From the NCBI RefSeq assembly GCF_001562115.1, contig NZ_CP013926.1, positions 4,154,001 to 4,218,000 on the forward strand: a stretch of DNA of 64,000 bases, given 5' to 3'. A model generated the notes under the pieces. The model was not told the origin of the DNA. It made no database searches and saw nothing but the letters and a program-made list of their open reading frames with translations. Below, piece after piece: positions 16,277-23,891 of this stretch (positions are counted from its first letter, which is position 1; every line of letters begins with the position of its first letter). Made by a program: the position numbers and the translations under genes. Source of the stretch: Alteromonas stellipolaris (lineage in GTDB: Bacteria; Pseudomonadota; Gammaproteobacteria; Enterobacterales; Alteromonadaceae).

Positions 16277-16356
16277 ATGCCTAACGATTTCCCCGACTTC
16301 CCACATAAATTAGCTTTCGGAACTACCTCCCTCACGCCAACTCACTCCAACTACCA

Positions 16357-16571
16357 ATTTAGTTCAGAGGGTGGAAAGCACCATGACAGACCTTCCACCG
16401 CATGGATGCGGTGGCAGAGCCCCCATGGATGGGTTTATTGGGAGCTAGGGTTGCATTAGAAGTGTGGGGCACACAATAAGTAAGCCCTCCCCCTTCTAAA
16501 AAGTCTCCGATGACCGATGATGAGTATGGCTGGTGGGGCGATAGACTTACTCTCCCCAAAGTCAGCCACGG
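16357..16571. repeat. Tandem repeat copy 1 (about 215 bp)
   Basis: This is the first of two full and one partial direct copies. It begins ATTTAGTTCAGAGGGTGG and contains two hairpins with the same core: CCACCGCATGGATGCGGTGG (16395-16414) and CCCATGGATGGG (16422-16433). It differs from copy 2 by scattered substitutions, so the duplication is not recent or is under drift. No gene is supported; short minus-strand reading frames through the repeats are by-products. Confidence 0.93.
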
Positions 16572-16784
16572 ATTTAGCTCAGAGGGTAGGAAGCACCATG
16601 ATAGACCTTCCACCGCATGGATGCGGTGGCAGAACGCCATGGCAGGGCTTATTGGGAGCTAGGGTTGCATTAAAAGTGCGGGGCACACAATAAGCAGGCC
16701 CTCCACCTTCTAAAAAGTCTCCGATGGCCGATGATGAGTATGGCTGGTGGGGCGATAGACTTACTCTCCCCAAGCCAGCCATGG
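16572..16784. repeat. Tandem repeat copy 2 (about 213 bp)
   Basis: This copy is co-linear with copy 1 over its whole length. It keeps the 20-base hairpin (16610-16629), but the second hairpin has changed to a GCCATGGC palindrome. The conserved tail includes CTAAAAAGTCTCCGATG and GGGCGATAGACTTACTCTCC. Confidence 0.93.
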
Positions 16785-16863
16785 ATTTAGCTCAGAGGGT
16801 AGGAAGCACCATGATAGACCTTCCACCGCATGGATGCGGTGGCAGAGCCCCCATGGATGGATT
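16785..16863. repeat. Tandem repeat copy 3, truncated
   Basis: Only the first 79 or so bases match copies 1 and 2, including the 20-base hairpin at 16823-16842. The match ends at CCCCATGGATGG, just before the 3' end of the HMG-CoA reductase gene (16910). Confidence 0.9.
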
Positions 16864-18836: not shown

Positions 18837-20087
18837 ATGAGAAAAGGACTATTCCGTCATCAGGCAATGCAGCCTACTTCGTCATTTCAAGGTGAATTGC
18901 TGATGACGCCTCGACCGTCCCATATGGGAATAACCGCGATACTACTTTTATGGATAGTGTGTTTGGGGGTATACCTCACTACGGGTAGTTATGCCCGAAA
19001 AGCCACAGTTGAAGGTTGGTTAGAGCCCTCTCATGGCGTACTAAGGTTGTACGCCGACTCCCGTAAAGGCCGCATTTCCCAAGTGTATGTCAGCGAGGGG
19101 CAAAAAGTTTTGAAAGGCGAACCATTACTATCGATTGAATACGGGGTTCAGCAGCCACAAGGTGAAACCGTAGAGCTAAAACTGCAACAAGAGCTTCTAG
19201 CTAAAAAGCAGCGAATAACCGACTCTTTGACGCGTACCATTACTATTCATAAAAACAGCCACGTGCAGCTAGTAAAGCAACTTGAGCACGCACAAACAGA
19301 CGCCGATTCAATACGCCATATTTTAGCGATTTCTCATCAACAGTGGCAGTTAGCGCACAATCATTTTACCTCACTTGAAGTGCTGCGCGATGCCGGCCAT
19401 GTAAGTAACGCAGATTTCGATAGTTATAAATTGGAGCTTTTGAGTAGCCAGCAACAATGGAAACAAGCTGAGCGGAACAACCTAAAAAGCGAAGCTGAAG
19501 TAAGCCGACTGACATATGAAATTGCCGGCTTACCCGAGATACAAGCCAATGAGCGCACTGCACACGAAAACCAACTGAGTGATATCAACCAACAGTTACT
19601 AACGTTAAATCGCGATCGGCAGCGCATTCTATATGCAACGCAAAATGGTGTGGTTTCAAGTCTGCAAGCAAGTACTGGATTAATGGTCGATCAGAACAGG
19701 CCGCTACTTAGCTTACTTCCAGAGAATTCACCAATAGAAGCACGATTGTTGGTGCCCGTGCGCGCCGCCGGATTTATTGCTAGCGGGCAACAACTCGCGA
19801 TTCGTTACGATGCCTTTCCCTATCAGAAATTTGGTTTGCAAGAGGGGCAGATAACGAGCATTTCTGAAACTATTTTACTGCCTGGTGAATGGGCGAACGC
19901 GCCTTTAACCGTAAGCGAACCCGCCTATTTGGTTACCGCTAGAGTAAGCAGCGACGCCATTATTGCCTATGGAAATCCGGTAATGCTTAAGGCTGGAATG
20001 ACATTTTCAGCAGACGTTGCGCTTAGCCAGCGTAGCTTACTGGAATGGATCTTAGAGCCGCTTCTAAGCGTCACTAAAAGGTTGTGA
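18837..20087 (+). CDS. HlyD-family membrane fusion protein of the peptide exporter
   Basis: This 416-residue adaptor spans the periplasm and links an inner-membrane ABC exporter to an outer-membrane channel. One TM segment lies at about residues 31-48, followed by a biotinyl/lipoyl half (GRISQVYVSEGQKVLKGEPLL), a long alpha-hairpin coiled coil (about 110-260), the second lipoyl half (GVVSSLQASTGLMVD) and a beta-barrel domain. Its stop overlaps the GTG of the downstream exporter gene. It resembles the adaptors paired with colicin V/bacteriocin-type C39 exporters. It is the first gene of the five-gene peptide cluster. Confidence 0.92.
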   Translation: MRKGLFRHQAMQPTSSFQGELLMTPRPSHMGITAILLLWIVCLGVYLTTGSYARKATVEGWLEPSHGVLRLYADSRKGRISQVYVSEGQKVLKGEPLLSIEYGVQQPQGETVELKLQQELLAKKQRITDSLTRTITIHKNSHVQLVKQLEHAQTDADSIRHILAISHQQWQLAHNHFTSLEVLRDAGHVSNADFDSYKLELLSSQQQWKQAERNNLKSEAEVSRLTYEIAGLPEIQANERTAHENQLSDINQQLLTLNRDRQRILYATQNGVVSSLQASTGLMVDQNRPLLSLLPENSPIEARLLVPVRAAGFIASGQQLAIRYDAFPYQKFGLQEGQITSISETILLPGEWANAPLTVSEPAYLVTARVSSDAIIAYGNPVMLKAGMTFSADVALSQRSLLEWILEPLLSVTKRL

Positions 20088-22303
20088 TTATGAATATTAC
20101 TCACGGTTTTGCTTCACCTGTACTCAGCGCTTTATCACCTAAAAACAAAGTACCAGTTGTGCTTCAAACTGAAGCCGCTGAATGTGGCTTAGCCTGTGTC
20201 AGCATGGTGGCACAATATTATGGTGACAAACGGGATATGACCCACCTTCGCCAGCGCATTAGCGTTTCACTTCGTGGTATTACACTTAAAGATATTATGG
20301 ATATCGCGCAGCAAATGGCATTTCAATGTCGTGCGCTAAAAATTGAGCCACAGGATTTATCTCAACTAACCCTGCCAGCAATACTACATTGGGACATGCG
20401 TCATTTCGTTGTTTTGACTAACGTAGGGCGTGAACGATTTACCATACACGATCCGAGTATTGGCAAACGCACCTTCACCTTCGACGAGGCAAGTAAACAT
20501 CTAACAGGAATAGCGTTAGAAATTACGCCTAAAGACAATTTTTCGCCGCCTCCGGTAAAGCCTTTACTAAAACTAAGAGACTTTTTTACCCGCACCATAG
20601 GGTTCAAACGTAACTTAGCGACCTTGCTTGCGCTGTCTGCCTTGCTGCAACTTTTTGCATTGGCATCTCCCTATTACGTACAAACCGTTGTTGATGATGT
20701 GTTGTTGCAAGGAAACCAAGCGCTGCTAACCGCACTTGCCATTGGGTTTACTTTCTTACTACTGATAAGCATCTTCACCAGAGTGTTGCGACGCTTTCTG
20801 ATCCTTGCTGTATCAAGCCGACTTCAACTTCAAATGTCCGCCTCGGTCTTTCAACATTTGCTTTCGCTACCGCTGGATTTTTTTGCTAAAAGGCACGTGG
20901 GCGATGTGGTGTCTCGTTTTGGCTCCCTCGCGCATATTCGTGAGTTTCTCACCACTGGACTTGTCACAGCCTTGCTCGACGGTGTCATGGCTATTATTAC
21001 CCTTGTCGTGATGGCACTTTACTCTGTAAAACTCACGCTATGTGTGGTGCTAGTAGTGGCGATATATCTACTTTTCCGCATTGCATTAATACCTATCACT
21101 AAGCGGCTCACAACAGAAAAAATTGCGTTAGGCGCCACCGAGCAAAGCCACTTTATGGAAAGCGTTCGAGGCATGTTGCCTATTCGTGTATACCGCCAAG
21201 AATCGCAGCGCCATAGCCAGTGGCAAAACAAGTTAGTCGCCACTTTAAATAAAGATATTAGTTTAGGAAAACTCAATATTGGCAGCGACGCGGTAAACCA
21301 AGTGTTATTTGGTCTTGAGAACATCGCTGTAATCTTTATAGCGGCCTCTTTGGTGATGGATAATATGCTGACCGTAGGAATGATGCTTGCCTTCATTGCT
21401 TACAAAACCAAATTTACTGCTGCGGTAGACGGGCTAGTGTCTAAATTTATCGAATTACGAATGCTGGCCGTTCACTTTTCTCGCCTGAGCGATATTGTAC
21501 TAACAGAGCCTGCTGAAACCACCTTGTTGTCACAACAACCTAGCGCTTATTCAAACGCAACCCCAGTACCTGCAGCCGCCACTTCTAATGCTATTGCCTC
21601 TAGTACTCCTGCTATTCATTTAAAAGCTCACAATCTTAGTTATCGGTATGGGGAGGGGTGTAACTGTATTTTTGAAAACCTTAATTTATCGGTTAAAGCA
21701 GGGGAAATCATTGCCATCGTTGGAGCAAGCGGAAGTGGAAAAAGCACCTTACTTAAATGTCTGATGGGGCTATATGCTCCCTCTGAGGGAACGGTTAGTC
21801 ACAATATGATTTCATCATCAAATCACGCGCCAACCATCGCTTCTGTGCTGCAAGAAGACATGTGCTTATCCGGCTCTATGGCTGAAAACATCAGTTGTTT
21901 TGATGAAATACCTAATCAAGAAAAGATCGTCCGGGCCGCCCAGTTAGCCTGTATCCATGACGAAATTTGTGCCATGCCTATGCAATATCACTCGTTAGTC
22001 GGTGATATGGGAAGCAGCTTAAGTGGTGGTCAGAAGCAACGGCTTTTATTAGCTAGAGCACTCTACCGCTCTCCCGATATTCTTTTTCTTGATGAAGCAA
22101 GCAGCCATTTAGATATTCAAAATGAGCACATCATCAATACTCATCTAAAGGCACTGAATATTACCCGCATTATGGTTGCCCATCGGCCTCAAACAATTGC
22201 CCTTGCGGATACTGTCTATCAGTTAGTAGACGGCACTCTGCAGCGATACCCAGCTTCTGAAATAGTAGAAGAAAATGATAATACCCCACTAGGAGATTCA
22301 TAA
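20084..22303 (+). CDS. C39 peptidase-containing ABC transporter (double-glycine peptide exporter)
   Basis: This 739-residue three-domain protein combines a C39 cysteine peptidase, six TM helices and an ATPase. The peptidase (residues 20-150) has the catalytic Cys in QTEAAECGLAC (C34), His in MRHFVVL and Asp in IHDPSIG. The TM region spans about 180-470. The ATPase has Walker A GASGSGKST, signature LSGGQKQR and Walker B ILFLDEASS. Such exporters cleave leaders after a Gly-Gly pair and export the core. The natural substrate is the precursor encoded at 22663. The GTG at 20084 overlaps the preceding stop; an ATG two codons later (20090) is the alternative start. Confidence 0.95.
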   Translation: MIMNITHGFASPVLSALSPKNKVPVVLQTEAAECGLACVSMVAQYYGDKRDMTHLRQRISVSLRGITLKDIMDIAQQMAFQCRALKIEPQDLSQLTLPAILHWDMRHFVVLTNVGRERFTIHDPSIGKRTFTFDEASKHLTGIALEITPKDNFSPPPVKPLLKLRDFFTRTIGFKRNLATLLALSALLQLFALASPYYVQTVVDDVLLQGNQALLTALAIGFTFLLLISIFTRVLRRFLILAVSSRLQLQMSASVFQHLLSLPLDFFAKRHVGDVVSRFGSLAHIREFLTTGLVTALLDGVMAIITLVVMALYSVKLTLCVVLVVAIYLLFRIALIPITKRLTTEKIALGATEQSHFMESVRGMLPIRVYRQESQRHSQWQNKLVATLNKDISLGKLNIGSDAVNQVLFGLENIAVIFIAASLVMDNMLTVGMMLAFIAYKTKFTAAVDGLVSKFIELRMLAVHFSRLSDIVLTEPAETTLLSQQPSAYSNATPVPAAATSNAIASSTPAIHLKAHNLSYRYGEGCNCIFENLNLSVKAGEIIAIVGASGSGKSTLLKCLMGLYAPSEGTVSHNMISSSNHAPTIASVLQEDMCLSGSMAENISCFDEIPNQEKIVRAAQLACIHDEICAMPMQYHSLVGDMGSSLSGGQKQRLLLARALYRSPDILFLDEASSHLDIQNEHIINTHLKALNITRIMVAHRPQTIALADTVYQLVDGTLQRYPASEIVEENDNTPLGDS

Positions 22304-22614
22304 TGATAACCCCCGAAGTTAGAGAATCTACACCCTTACTCACCGATATTGAGCGTCAACAAATCGTTGAGCATGTAGAGAACTTAAATAGTACTGCCCT
22401 TCCTATCGACACCTTGTCTAAACGCGAGCTTCAGGTTGCGCGAAAGATCATGGAAGGGCTATCGAATAAAGCGATAGCGACAGAGCTATTTATTAGCGAG
22501 CGAACGGTTAAGTTCCACTGTGCCAATATTTACAAAAAATTAAAAATAAGCAGCCGCACCGCGCTTATCGCGAGTTGCTTTCGATCGATTTACCACCCCT
22601 TAAGGTTGGCTTAA
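22303..22614 (+). CDS. Stand-alone LuxR-type HTH regulator
   Basis: This 103-residue protein consists almost only of a GerE/LuxR DNA-binding domain (residues about 38-95: LSKRELQVARKIMEGLSNKA, then SERTVKFHCANIYKKL). There is no receiver or autoinducer-binding domain. The start overlaps the exporter stop by one base (TAATG). Placed between exporter and precursor genes, it probably controls this cluster (inference). A phosphorylation-independent LuxR protein of this size may act by level or by pairing with another regulator. Confidence 0.88.
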   Translation: MITPEVRESTPLLTDIERQQIVEHVENLNSTALPIDTLSKRELQVARKIMEGLSNKAIATELFISERTVKFHCANIYKKLKISSRTALIASCFRSIYHPLRLA

Positions 22615-22662
22615 CCGCTAGCTTTTTAAATCACACTAAAACGCTTTTATAAGGAGCGAAAA

Positions 22663-22887
22663 ATGCAACATAACACGCAAAACCATACACACAAAAATAC
22701 ACAAAAACATGTACAAACTGCTACTGAATTTCACCTTGCAACCCAAGAACTACTGCAAGTGACTGGCGGCAAGTCTGGCGTATCAACAGGTGCAGATAAA
22801 GCGCCAATCCGTCTTATTAAACCACCTGTCTATATCACCCTAGCGATTGGTGAGGACGGCGGACAATTACCCGATTTATTGTCATAG
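22663..22887 (+). CDS. Precursor peptide with double-glycine leader (putative graspetide precursor)
   Basis: This is a 74-residue peptide with a very strong ribosome site (AAGGAG, 6 bases before the ATG). Residues 1-36 form a His/Thr/Gln-rich leader ending FHLATQELLQVTGG. It fits the double-glycine consensus: L at -12, E at -8, L at -7, V at -4, G at -2 and -1. The predicted 38-residue core (K37-S74) contains TLAIGEDGG and QLPD near its end, with T59 (also S38, S41, T42, K46, K53, S74) as possible donors and D45, E64, D65 and D71 as possible acceptors for ester or amide crosslinks. There is no Cys, and no microviridin TxKYPSD-type motif. The adjacent ATP-grasp gene is the evidence for modification; the ring pattern is not known. 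Confidence 0.85.
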   Translation: MQHNTQNHTHKNTQKHVQTATEFHLATQELLQVTGGKSGVSTGADKAPIRLIKPPVYITLAIGEDGGQLPDLLS

Positions 22888-22893
22888 CAGATT

Positions 22894-22918
22894 AAGGAGG
22901 TTAAGCAGTCCTCCTTTT
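22894..22918 (+). terminator. Attenuator-like hairpin between precursor and ligase genes
   Basis: AAGGAGG pairs with CCTCCTT across a 9-base loop and runs into TTTT, 6 bp after the precursor stop. It probably terminates part of the transcripts, so that precursor mRNA exceeds ligase mRNA, and it may also protect the precursor mRNA 3' end. The T-run is short, so read-through is expected. Confidence 0.55.
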
Positions 22919-22940
22919 ACCATTTAGAAAGGATATTTCA

Positions 22941-23858
22941 ATGCAGATTGCATTAATAGGGAGCGAGAATGACCCACAAATTCTTCATGTGGCTGAAGCC
23001 TTAATAGCCGATAAAAACGAGCCCTGTATTATCAACACCAACTACTTTGGTAAGCACTGGCAGCTCAGTTACGATCCGGATTATAATGATGGTCTTTTGC
23101 ATTTTAACCAGCCTACGCGCAACGGGCTTTTTCGAATTCCGCTATCAGACATCACATCTGCCTATTGGCACCAATATATTCCTCCCTCGGTGAGCGCCTC
23201 TGACAATGTGTCTTCGCAATGGTTAGATCAAGAATATGCCAGCACCTTGTTATGTTGGTTTTTATTCAGTGAAACTAAGTGGGTTAATGGTATTGACGCC
23301 ATTCGCGCTCATCACTGCAAACCCATTCAGCTGCGAATGGCAAAAAAGCTAGGGGCTAAGGTGCCATATACCTATATAGGCAACGCTAGTGATGTTGCTC
23401 TACAGTTTTGTGCGAATATAGACGAGGTGGTTTACAAGCCCGTGAAAGGCGGCGAAACAGCGAAATTCATGCAACAGGGCTATGATACTCGCGGTTTAGT
23501 ACAGGCTTTGTTAAAAGAGCGCCCTGTGACGTTTCAAGCATTTATTGAAGGGACAAACATTCGCAGTTACGTACTGGGTGATGAAGTCGTCAGTGTACAA
23601 ATAGACTCTCACGATCTCGATTTCAGGGACGATATAAACGCACGCCCTTTGCTGACCCCCCTTCCTAAACCAATGCAGGATTTATCACGAAAGATATGTT
23701 CCGGCTTAGGAATGCATTGGTGTGCTATTGATTGGCGTAAAAATACCAAGGGTGAATATTACTTTTTGGAAGCTAACCCTTGCCCTTTCTTCTTGTTTGT
23801 TGAAAACGAGACTGGCGTTGATATTACTGGGCGTTTAGTGAAATTATTAACCACATAA
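22941..23858 (+). CDS. MvdD-like ATP-grasp ligase, peptide-crosslinking (graspetide synthetase)
   Basis: This 305-residue ATP-grasp enzyme resembles the microviridin/marinostatin ligases (MvdC/MvdD, RimK-related). Matching blocks are the N-terminal domain ending SAYWHQYIPP (family SxWxRRP-like), QLRMAKKLGAKVPYTYI, the ATP-binding VYKPVKGG and the Mg-binding YYFLEANPCPFFLFVENETG. Family members join Ser/Thr or Lys side chains of a precursor to Asp/Glu side chains, giving omega-ester or omega-amide rings. AAGGA lies 7 bases before the ATG. There is a single ligase gene and no acetyltransferase gene, unlike typical microviridin clusters, which carry two ligases. Confidence 0.88.
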   Translation: MQIALIGSENDPQILHVAEALIADKNEPCIINTNYFGKHWQLSYDPDYNDGLLHFNQPTRNGLFRIPLSDITSAYWHQYIPPSVSASDNVSSQWLDQEYASTLLCWFLFSETKWVNGIDAIRAHHCKPIQLRMAKKLGAKVPYTYIGNASDVALQFCANIDEVVYKPVKGGETAKFMQQGYDTRGLVQALLKERPVTFQAFIEGTNIRSYVLGDEVVSVQIDSHDLDFRDDINARPLLTPLPKPMQDLSRKICSGLGMHWCAIDWRKNTKGEYYFLEANPCPFFLFVENETGVDITGRLVKLLTT

Positions 23859-23859
23859 A

Positions 23860-23891
23860 AAAAGAGCGCATTTAAATAAATGCGCTCTTTT
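23860..23891. terminator. Bidirectional terminator, peptide cluster / hslU
   Basis: AAAAGAGCGCATTT pairs with AAATGCGCTCTTTT across a 4-base loop, giving a 14-bp stem with A- and T-runs on both sides. It closes the rightward peptide cluster and the leftward hslVU transcript. Confidence 0.93.

Follow-up and report, generated by a model that had tools for sequence, protein, structure and literature searches.

A five-gene cluster of Alteromonas stellipolaris that probably encodes a single-ring, plesiocin-type graspetide

Positions 4,154,001 to 4,218,000 of NZ_CP013926.1 from Alteromonas stellipolaris, a stretch of 64,000 nucleotides (nt) that we call the window, contain five uninterrupted open reading frames (ORFs) on the forward strand, in the order HlyD adaptor, C39-peptidase ABC exporter, LuxR-type helix-turn-helix (HTH) protein, precursor peptide and ATP-grasp ligase. 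Sequence comparisons make it likely that they form a functional graspetide cluster of a derived plesiocin-type (group 2) branch, whose product would be closed by a single macrolactone between Thr59 and Glu64 of the precursor. All five genes are intact, and together they very probably synthesize, cyclize, trim and export a graspetide. An initial annotation of the same DNA had proposed such a path from synthesis to export, and it is supported by the macrocyclase type of the ligase, by its intact DxR and metal positions and by the co-occurrence of precursor and ligase. The further suggestion that the peptide may represent a new subgroup has to be narrowed: the locus does not found a new group but lies on a derived branch of a known one, with one predicted ring.

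Core pattern and its link to plesiocin

Graspetide groups are told apart by their ligase and their core pattern. The pattern of plesiocin and group 2, which we take to be TTxxxxEE, offers two esters; the window core reads ITLAIGED and does not hold the full pattern. Judged by its sequence, it is a diverged plesiocin-type core in which only the inner T-x4-E pair is left, and because the outer Thr and the outer Glu are missing, we file the locus as a derived branch of group 2 and not as a typical member. The initial annotation was right that the core is unlike those of microviridin and marinostatin, whose patterns differ from it, but it missed the match to plesiocin, which runs through the inner pair.

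This pair provides the conserved Ser, Thr or Lys donor and Asp or Glu acceptor by which a graspetide precursor is recognized. In a count that demanded neither T nor E, the last 25 residues of the closest small ORF upstream of the ligase contain it in 42 of the 43 ligase-bearing genus genomes, while the background in the window is 3 of 106 ATG-started ORFs of that size; all eight matches of a single-sequence precursor search also have it. The outer pair is lost almost throughout the genus: position 1 is I in 26 of the 42 precursors, F in 8, Y in 7 and T in one, leaving 41 without an outer donor, and position 8 is G in 21, D in 16, N in 3, T in one and H in one, never E. Motifs of the form TTxAxGEEGG are found in relatives from elsewhere in the Alteromonadaceae and from Oxalobacteraceae and cyanobacteria. 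Pfam and NCBIfam scans gave no significant family for the precursor, and its tail alone had no match in the PDB. A comparison of the precursor profile with the PsnA2 peptide of 7drm (E 1.7, 9 positions) ranked below chance matches to malate dehydrogenase and is not counted as evidence; PsnA2 was likewise not reached through P0152, a relative with another leader type, used whole or as a piece.

For a tree, 78 ligases were picked by hand out of 150 loci, with copies and a portion of the cyanobacteria omitted; the 75 with a T-x4-E core enter the counts by row. Outer donor and outer acceptor covary in 74 of these 75 rows (both present in 22, neither in 52, the donor only in one). Some ligase columns distinguish one-ring from two-ring rows, for example column 283, which is Met in 34 of 34 two-ring rows and in 5 of 45 one-ring rows. 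They appear to mark lineage, since the seven Pseudoalteromonas-type rows, which also lack the first Thr, keep Met at 283. In the Pseudoalteromonas-type loci this Thr was apparently lost in an independent event.

Loci of Pseudoalteromonas and related organisms (L072, L085, L079, L119 and L120) hold one to six small precursors, mostly with an MHPF leader, and cores of the form V/I-T-x-A-x-x-E (e.g., VTMAIPEDG). The precursors adjoining the ligase in the cyanobacterial loci L064 and L077 have seven T/S-T-x-A-x-GEEGG repeats. Genome G038 (L147, L153) has, besides its single-pair locus, a second graspetide-like ligase and two MHPF precursors with TTMALGEEGG and TTMAIGEEGG.

Identity of the ligase

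By sequence and by fold, the nearest relatives of the ligase are macrocyclases of ribosomally synthesized and post-translationally modified peptides (RiPPs), as expected for a graspetide ligase. PsnB, which we take to be the maker of plesiocin-type peptides, is its best solved relative by profile (1.7e-50), followed by MdnC (1.1e-31) and by CdnC, the Chryseobacterium graspetide ligase (7.8e-28), whose core motif presumably differs from that of the window. Foldseek also ranks PsnB first (9.9e-25), and its structural Z of 29.7 is a tie with those of AMdnB (29.0), MdnC (28.9) and PruB (28.8), all within 1. Positions 227, 229, 264, 277 and 279 of the window ligase are intact (D, R, D, E and N); they correspond to the DxR motif and the metal positions of the family.

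Pfam assigns the protein to the RimK-like ATP-grasp family (1.7e-5). Among NCBIfam models TIGR04187 scores best (5.9e-30), ahead of MvdC (8.7e-15) and MvdD (8.4e-13), and all three remain below their curated cut-offs. The earlier label "MvdD-like" is loose, TIGR04187 outscoring MvdD. Membership in the microviridin or marinostatin type was considered and rejected, the MvdC and MvdD models giving 54.6 and 48.2 bits where the cut-offs are 425 and 475. Unlike microviridin (MdnB/MdnC) and marinostatin, the window family has no conserved second Thr/Ser or Lys partner.

Pairing of precursor and ligase

At cut-offs of E <= 1e-10 for the ligase and E <= 0.001 for the precursor profile, the ligase is present in 43 and the precursor in 42 of the 59 genus genomes; both occur together in 42, neither in 16, and one genome (G007) has the ligase only. 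No precursor was found in any of the 16 genomes without ligase. The initial annotation had named a lack of conserved pairing in relatives as what would speak against it; pairing is what we find, in 42 of the 43 ligase-bearing genomes. Outside the genus its distribution is patchy: matches to the ligase at E <= 1e-25 occur in 49 of 246 genomes sampled from the family.

The gene order was followed in the best 80 of 151 related loci that a ligase alignment retrieved (another listing took in 120 of 494 matches); many of them are the same contigs as the genus genomes, and counts from the two sets overlap. Adaptor, exporter, HTH gene and ligase stand in the window order on one strand in 32 of the 80, and in 31 of these 32 a T-x4-E precursor lies no more than 400 nt upstream of the ligase. 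The five-gene order is not a chance arrangement, since it recurs in full in 31 of the 80 related loci. The other 48, many of them cyanobacterial and some on short contigs, miss at least one partner gene in the stretch covered. In 22 of the 32 four-gene loci the neighbours are the same as in the window, HMG-CoA reductase on one side and hslU on the other, and this constant position suggests that the locus is old and mostly vertically inherited.

Joint decay of ligase and core

Where the DxR motif decays, the core is lost as well. D227 is kept in 75 of the 78 tree ligases, including all 75 with a T-x4-E core, and the three ligases without it (L009, L050 and L155), which lie on separate branches, are the three rows without such a core. 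In L009, from G007, all five positions are changed: at the locus L152:9101-10264 the cluster is kept whole, but the ligase reads Q, A, N, D and D at 227, 229, 264, 277 and 279 and the core has no T-x4-E. These changes are not a sequencing accident, because 303 of the 305 positions of the G007 ligase recur unchanged in P0013, a database protein with 53 member sequences, for which a Pfam scan had no match below E 0.019. Ligase and core of G007 are probably a natural disabled pair.

L155, from G110, is changed at D227, R229, E277 and N279 and sits on a very long branch, its position in the tree being unsure. The G110 ligase stands alone beside hslU (L156:9198-11533): inspection of ORF starts by eye over the surrounding 19.5 kb found neither a precursor with T-x-A-x-G-E or with HPF nor any large ORF similar to the adaptor, HTH or exporter genes. 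This decayed ligase is apparently a relic of the cluster.

Proposed pathway and alternative explanations

We propose that the ligase would convert the side-chain carboxylate of Glu64 into an acyl phosphate and that attack by Thr59 would give the six-residue macrolactone T59-L-A-I-G-E64, one water being lost. The exporter, through its C39 domain, may then cut the leader after Gly35-Gly36. The occurrence of a double-glycine leader end (LLQVTGG) and a C39 ABC exporter in one cluster agrees with this step, and the earlier claim that the leader fits the cleavage rule of the exporter holds, given this leader end and the C39 domain match of 2.6e-33; a very loose pattern of GG, GA, GS, AG or AA is found in the leader of 41 of the 42 genus precursors. 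The mature peptide of 38 residues, carrying its one small lactone close to the C-terminus, would leave the cell through exporter and HlyD adaptor; its calculated monoisotopic mass is 3889.156 unmodified and 3871.146 with one ring. The LuxR-type protein is probably the regulator that switches the cluster. By analogy with plesiocin and the microviridins, described as serine protease inhibitors (PMC13097080), one might guess that the product inhibits proteases.

Several observations weigh against a single-ring product made in this way. The precursor lacks the HPF motif that relatives have in their leaders, which bears on how the ligase would recognize it. The motif invariance of a 28-row alignment is partly built in, its rows having been found with a pattern demanding [T/S]xAxGE; the nearest-ORF count is the free test. 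The paired loss of outer donor and acceptor amounts to three independent pairs on the tree and is not significant. Of the five positions L050 is changed at D227 only, and in its core, TIFEFGE, the spacing of T and E is longer by one residue. When the comparison was widened to 108 distinct ligases, two of which (L054 and L067) are unreadable at the sites, a same-strand scan left 12 of 103 readable DxR-intact ligases without a T-x4-E-type precursor; three of the 12 are explained by a precursor on the other strand (L093, L102) or cut by the contig end (L076). The link between DxR and core has a Fisher p of 0.0024 in this wider set versus 1.3e-5 in the tree set, and both values ignore kinship. Finally, the authors of Gra-5, a group 2 peptide, judged their peptide to be inefficiently modified, with two acceptors and at least two donors conserved (PMC9576775).

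One alternative is that the ligase forms more than one link, T59-E64 and, for example, another from K53 or an upstream Ser or Thr to D65 or D71. The residues for it exist: K53, S38, S41 and T42 are possible donors in the window core, D45 is present and D65 and D71 are possible acceptors, and 41 of the 42 genus precursors have D or E in the tail. None of these donors or acceptors is conserved, though. L011 and L030 have no S, T or K at position 1 or in the 12 residues before the motif, position 8 is Gly in half of the genus precursors (21 of 42), and L010, L011 and L029 have V, N or P in place of D71; we consider a second link unlikely. It is far less probable still that the enzyme, like a RimK-like glutamate ligase, attaches an amino acid or a tag to the peptide and closes no ring, as both profile and structural comparisons place it nearest the RiPP macrocyclases. 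There is equally little to be expected from the explanation that the cluster is a relic whose inactive ligase leaves the exported peptide unmodified. This may hold in the close relative G007 (L152), which keeps the cluster with altered ligase positions and a core without T-x4-E, and G110 keeps a decayed ligase only; the window ligase, by comparison, is intact at all five positions, and 42 of the 43 genomes retain T-x4-E. A graspetide with a single T59-E64 ring remains the reading that we prefer.

Leader motif and hairpins

HPF, with which most two-ring relatives begin, is missing from the window precursor and from 40 of the 42 genus precursors; within the tree set 22 of the 23 rows with two donors have it, as do 11 of the 52 with one donor. 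The Aliiglaciecola precursor of L066 is of the HPF type. According to PMC8939145, Pro-hydrophobic leader motifs most likely activate the ligase, and the graspetide motif Phhx(1,2)h is found in about half of precursors. Since it occurs in only about half, a missing HPF does not exclude membership among the graspetides.

The gap between precursor and ligase often contains a hairpin. From 53 loci chosen without the near-copy L003 and the short-gap loci L143 and L148, one was too short and one had no control sequence, leaving 51, the window included. The mean z of the gap is -2.57, with 29 loci below -2; controls of equal length gave -1.18 upstream of the precursor (9 below -2) and -0.06 inside the ligase (2). 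The hairpin sequence varies from lineage to lineage. It is likely a partial terminator that would hold the precursor above the ligase; for the window itself, where z is -1.1 and not significant, such a role is possible.

A strong terminator had been said to close the unit downstream of the ligase. The strong hairpin is there (z -6.4), but the terminator scan calls it on the reverse strand only, that is, at the end of hslU, the T run of the forward strand lying within the stem. It may serve both the ligase unit, which would end here, and hslU.

Relation to known graspetides

The likeness to plesiocin (PsnA-PsnB) and group 2 consists in the closest solved ligase and in relatives of the window core that have what we take to be the plesiocin pattern. 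Unlike plesiocin, the window precursor has one motif copy instead of several, lacks the outer Thr and outer Glu, and places its motif between a long variable linker and a GG-x-LPD-like tail; unlike its nearer group 2 relatives, it has no HPF leader motif. The transporter is nearest to the NHLM type, which PMC13097080 describes as common in group 2.

Single-ring graspetides are not unheard of, because Gra-5, a group 2 peptide of Glaciecola sp. KUL10, showed one dehydration on expression in E. coli (PMC9576775) and two precursor clusters, 281 and 1028, allow only a single ester (PMC8939145). Gra-5 resembles the window peptide in belonging to group 2 and to the Alteromonadaceae, and is said to be one donor/acceptor set short of plesiocin; its ring position is not mapped in the account of its authors (PMC9576775). 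No description of the Alteromonas branch was found in the literature searched, although the supplementary member tables of earlier surveys may include it.

Layout of the locus

The compact arrangement claimed earlier, five genes on one strand with overlaps or short gaps, is borne out, the ORFs being intact and, the precursor aside, supported by Pfam (Table 1). The exporter starts at a GTG that overlaps the HlyD gene by 4 nt, or alternatively at an ATG at 20090, and the HTH ORF overlaps the exporter stop by 1 nt. Pfam finds in the exporter Peptidase_C39 (profile positions 1-132 of 133), ABC_membrane (6.5e-37) and ABC_tran (1.9e-27), and its nearest NCBIfam model is NHLM_micro_ABC1 (3.7e-138, below cut-off). 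The flanking genes, both on the reverse strand, are presumably HMG-CoA reductase upstream and hslU downstream. Further upstream, between the reductase and what we take to be an amidohydrolase-like gene, the window has at 16340-16851 an 84-nt repeat in three copies, spaced by about 214 nt and 81-100% like the reference copy.

Table 1. Features of the cluster in window coordinates
Feature	Position	Strand	Basis or remark
HlyD-type periplasmic adaptor, 416 aa	18837..20087	+	Pfam HlyD_3 3.8e-11, HlyD_D23 9.2e-10; NCBIfam TIGR01843 3.5e-33, below cut-off
Peptidase C39 - ABC exporter, 739 aa	20084..22303	+	Pfam and NCBIfam; predicted leader cut after Gly36 and core export
Single-domain LuxR/GerE HTH protein, 103 aa	22303..22614	+	Pfam GerE 6.6e-23
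Precursor, 74 aa	22663..22887	+	Sequence; 48-nt gap after HTH gene
Precursor leader, aa 1-36, double-glycine type, ending LATQELLQVTGG	22663..22770	+	Sequence
Precursor core, aa 37-74 (38 aa), and stop codon	22771..22887	+	Predicted product
Codon of Thr59, predicted ester donor	22837..22839	+	T-x4-E conservation
Codon of Glu64, predicted ester acceptor	22852..22854	+	T-x4-E conservation
Hairpin between precursor and ligase (AAGGAGG/CCTCCTT)	22894..22916	+	-10.5 kcal/mol
ATP-grasp macrocyclase, 305 aa	22941..23858	+	53-nt gap after precursor; predicted to form one Thr-Glu omega-ester
Hairpin with 14-bp stem between ligase and hslU	23860..23891		-18.8 kcal/mol, z -6.4, 0/200 shuffles as good

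Significance

These comparisons correct the first reading of the locus, in that the peptide belongs to the plesiocin line. A single bacterial family thereby offers a natural series from two-pair through one-pair to no-pair cores with matched ligases, and the window a small pair of substrate and enzyme, predicted to form a single ester, that would be useful for studies of mechanism and for engineering. If the window ligase is active, it acts without the HPF motif seen in its relatives' leaders. A broader scenario, which we put forward tentatively and would not yet call probable, is that the lineage of the genus reduced a two-ring hairpin graspetide to one six-residue macrolactone and shed the leader motif on which such ligases are supposed to depend, that the ligase now recognizes the core (YxTxAxGE-GG) and the GG leader helix, and that G007 exports an unmodified peptide with the disabled ligase kept in frame. 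If this is true, the functions of the second ring and of the leader motif could be studied along a natural series within the genus.
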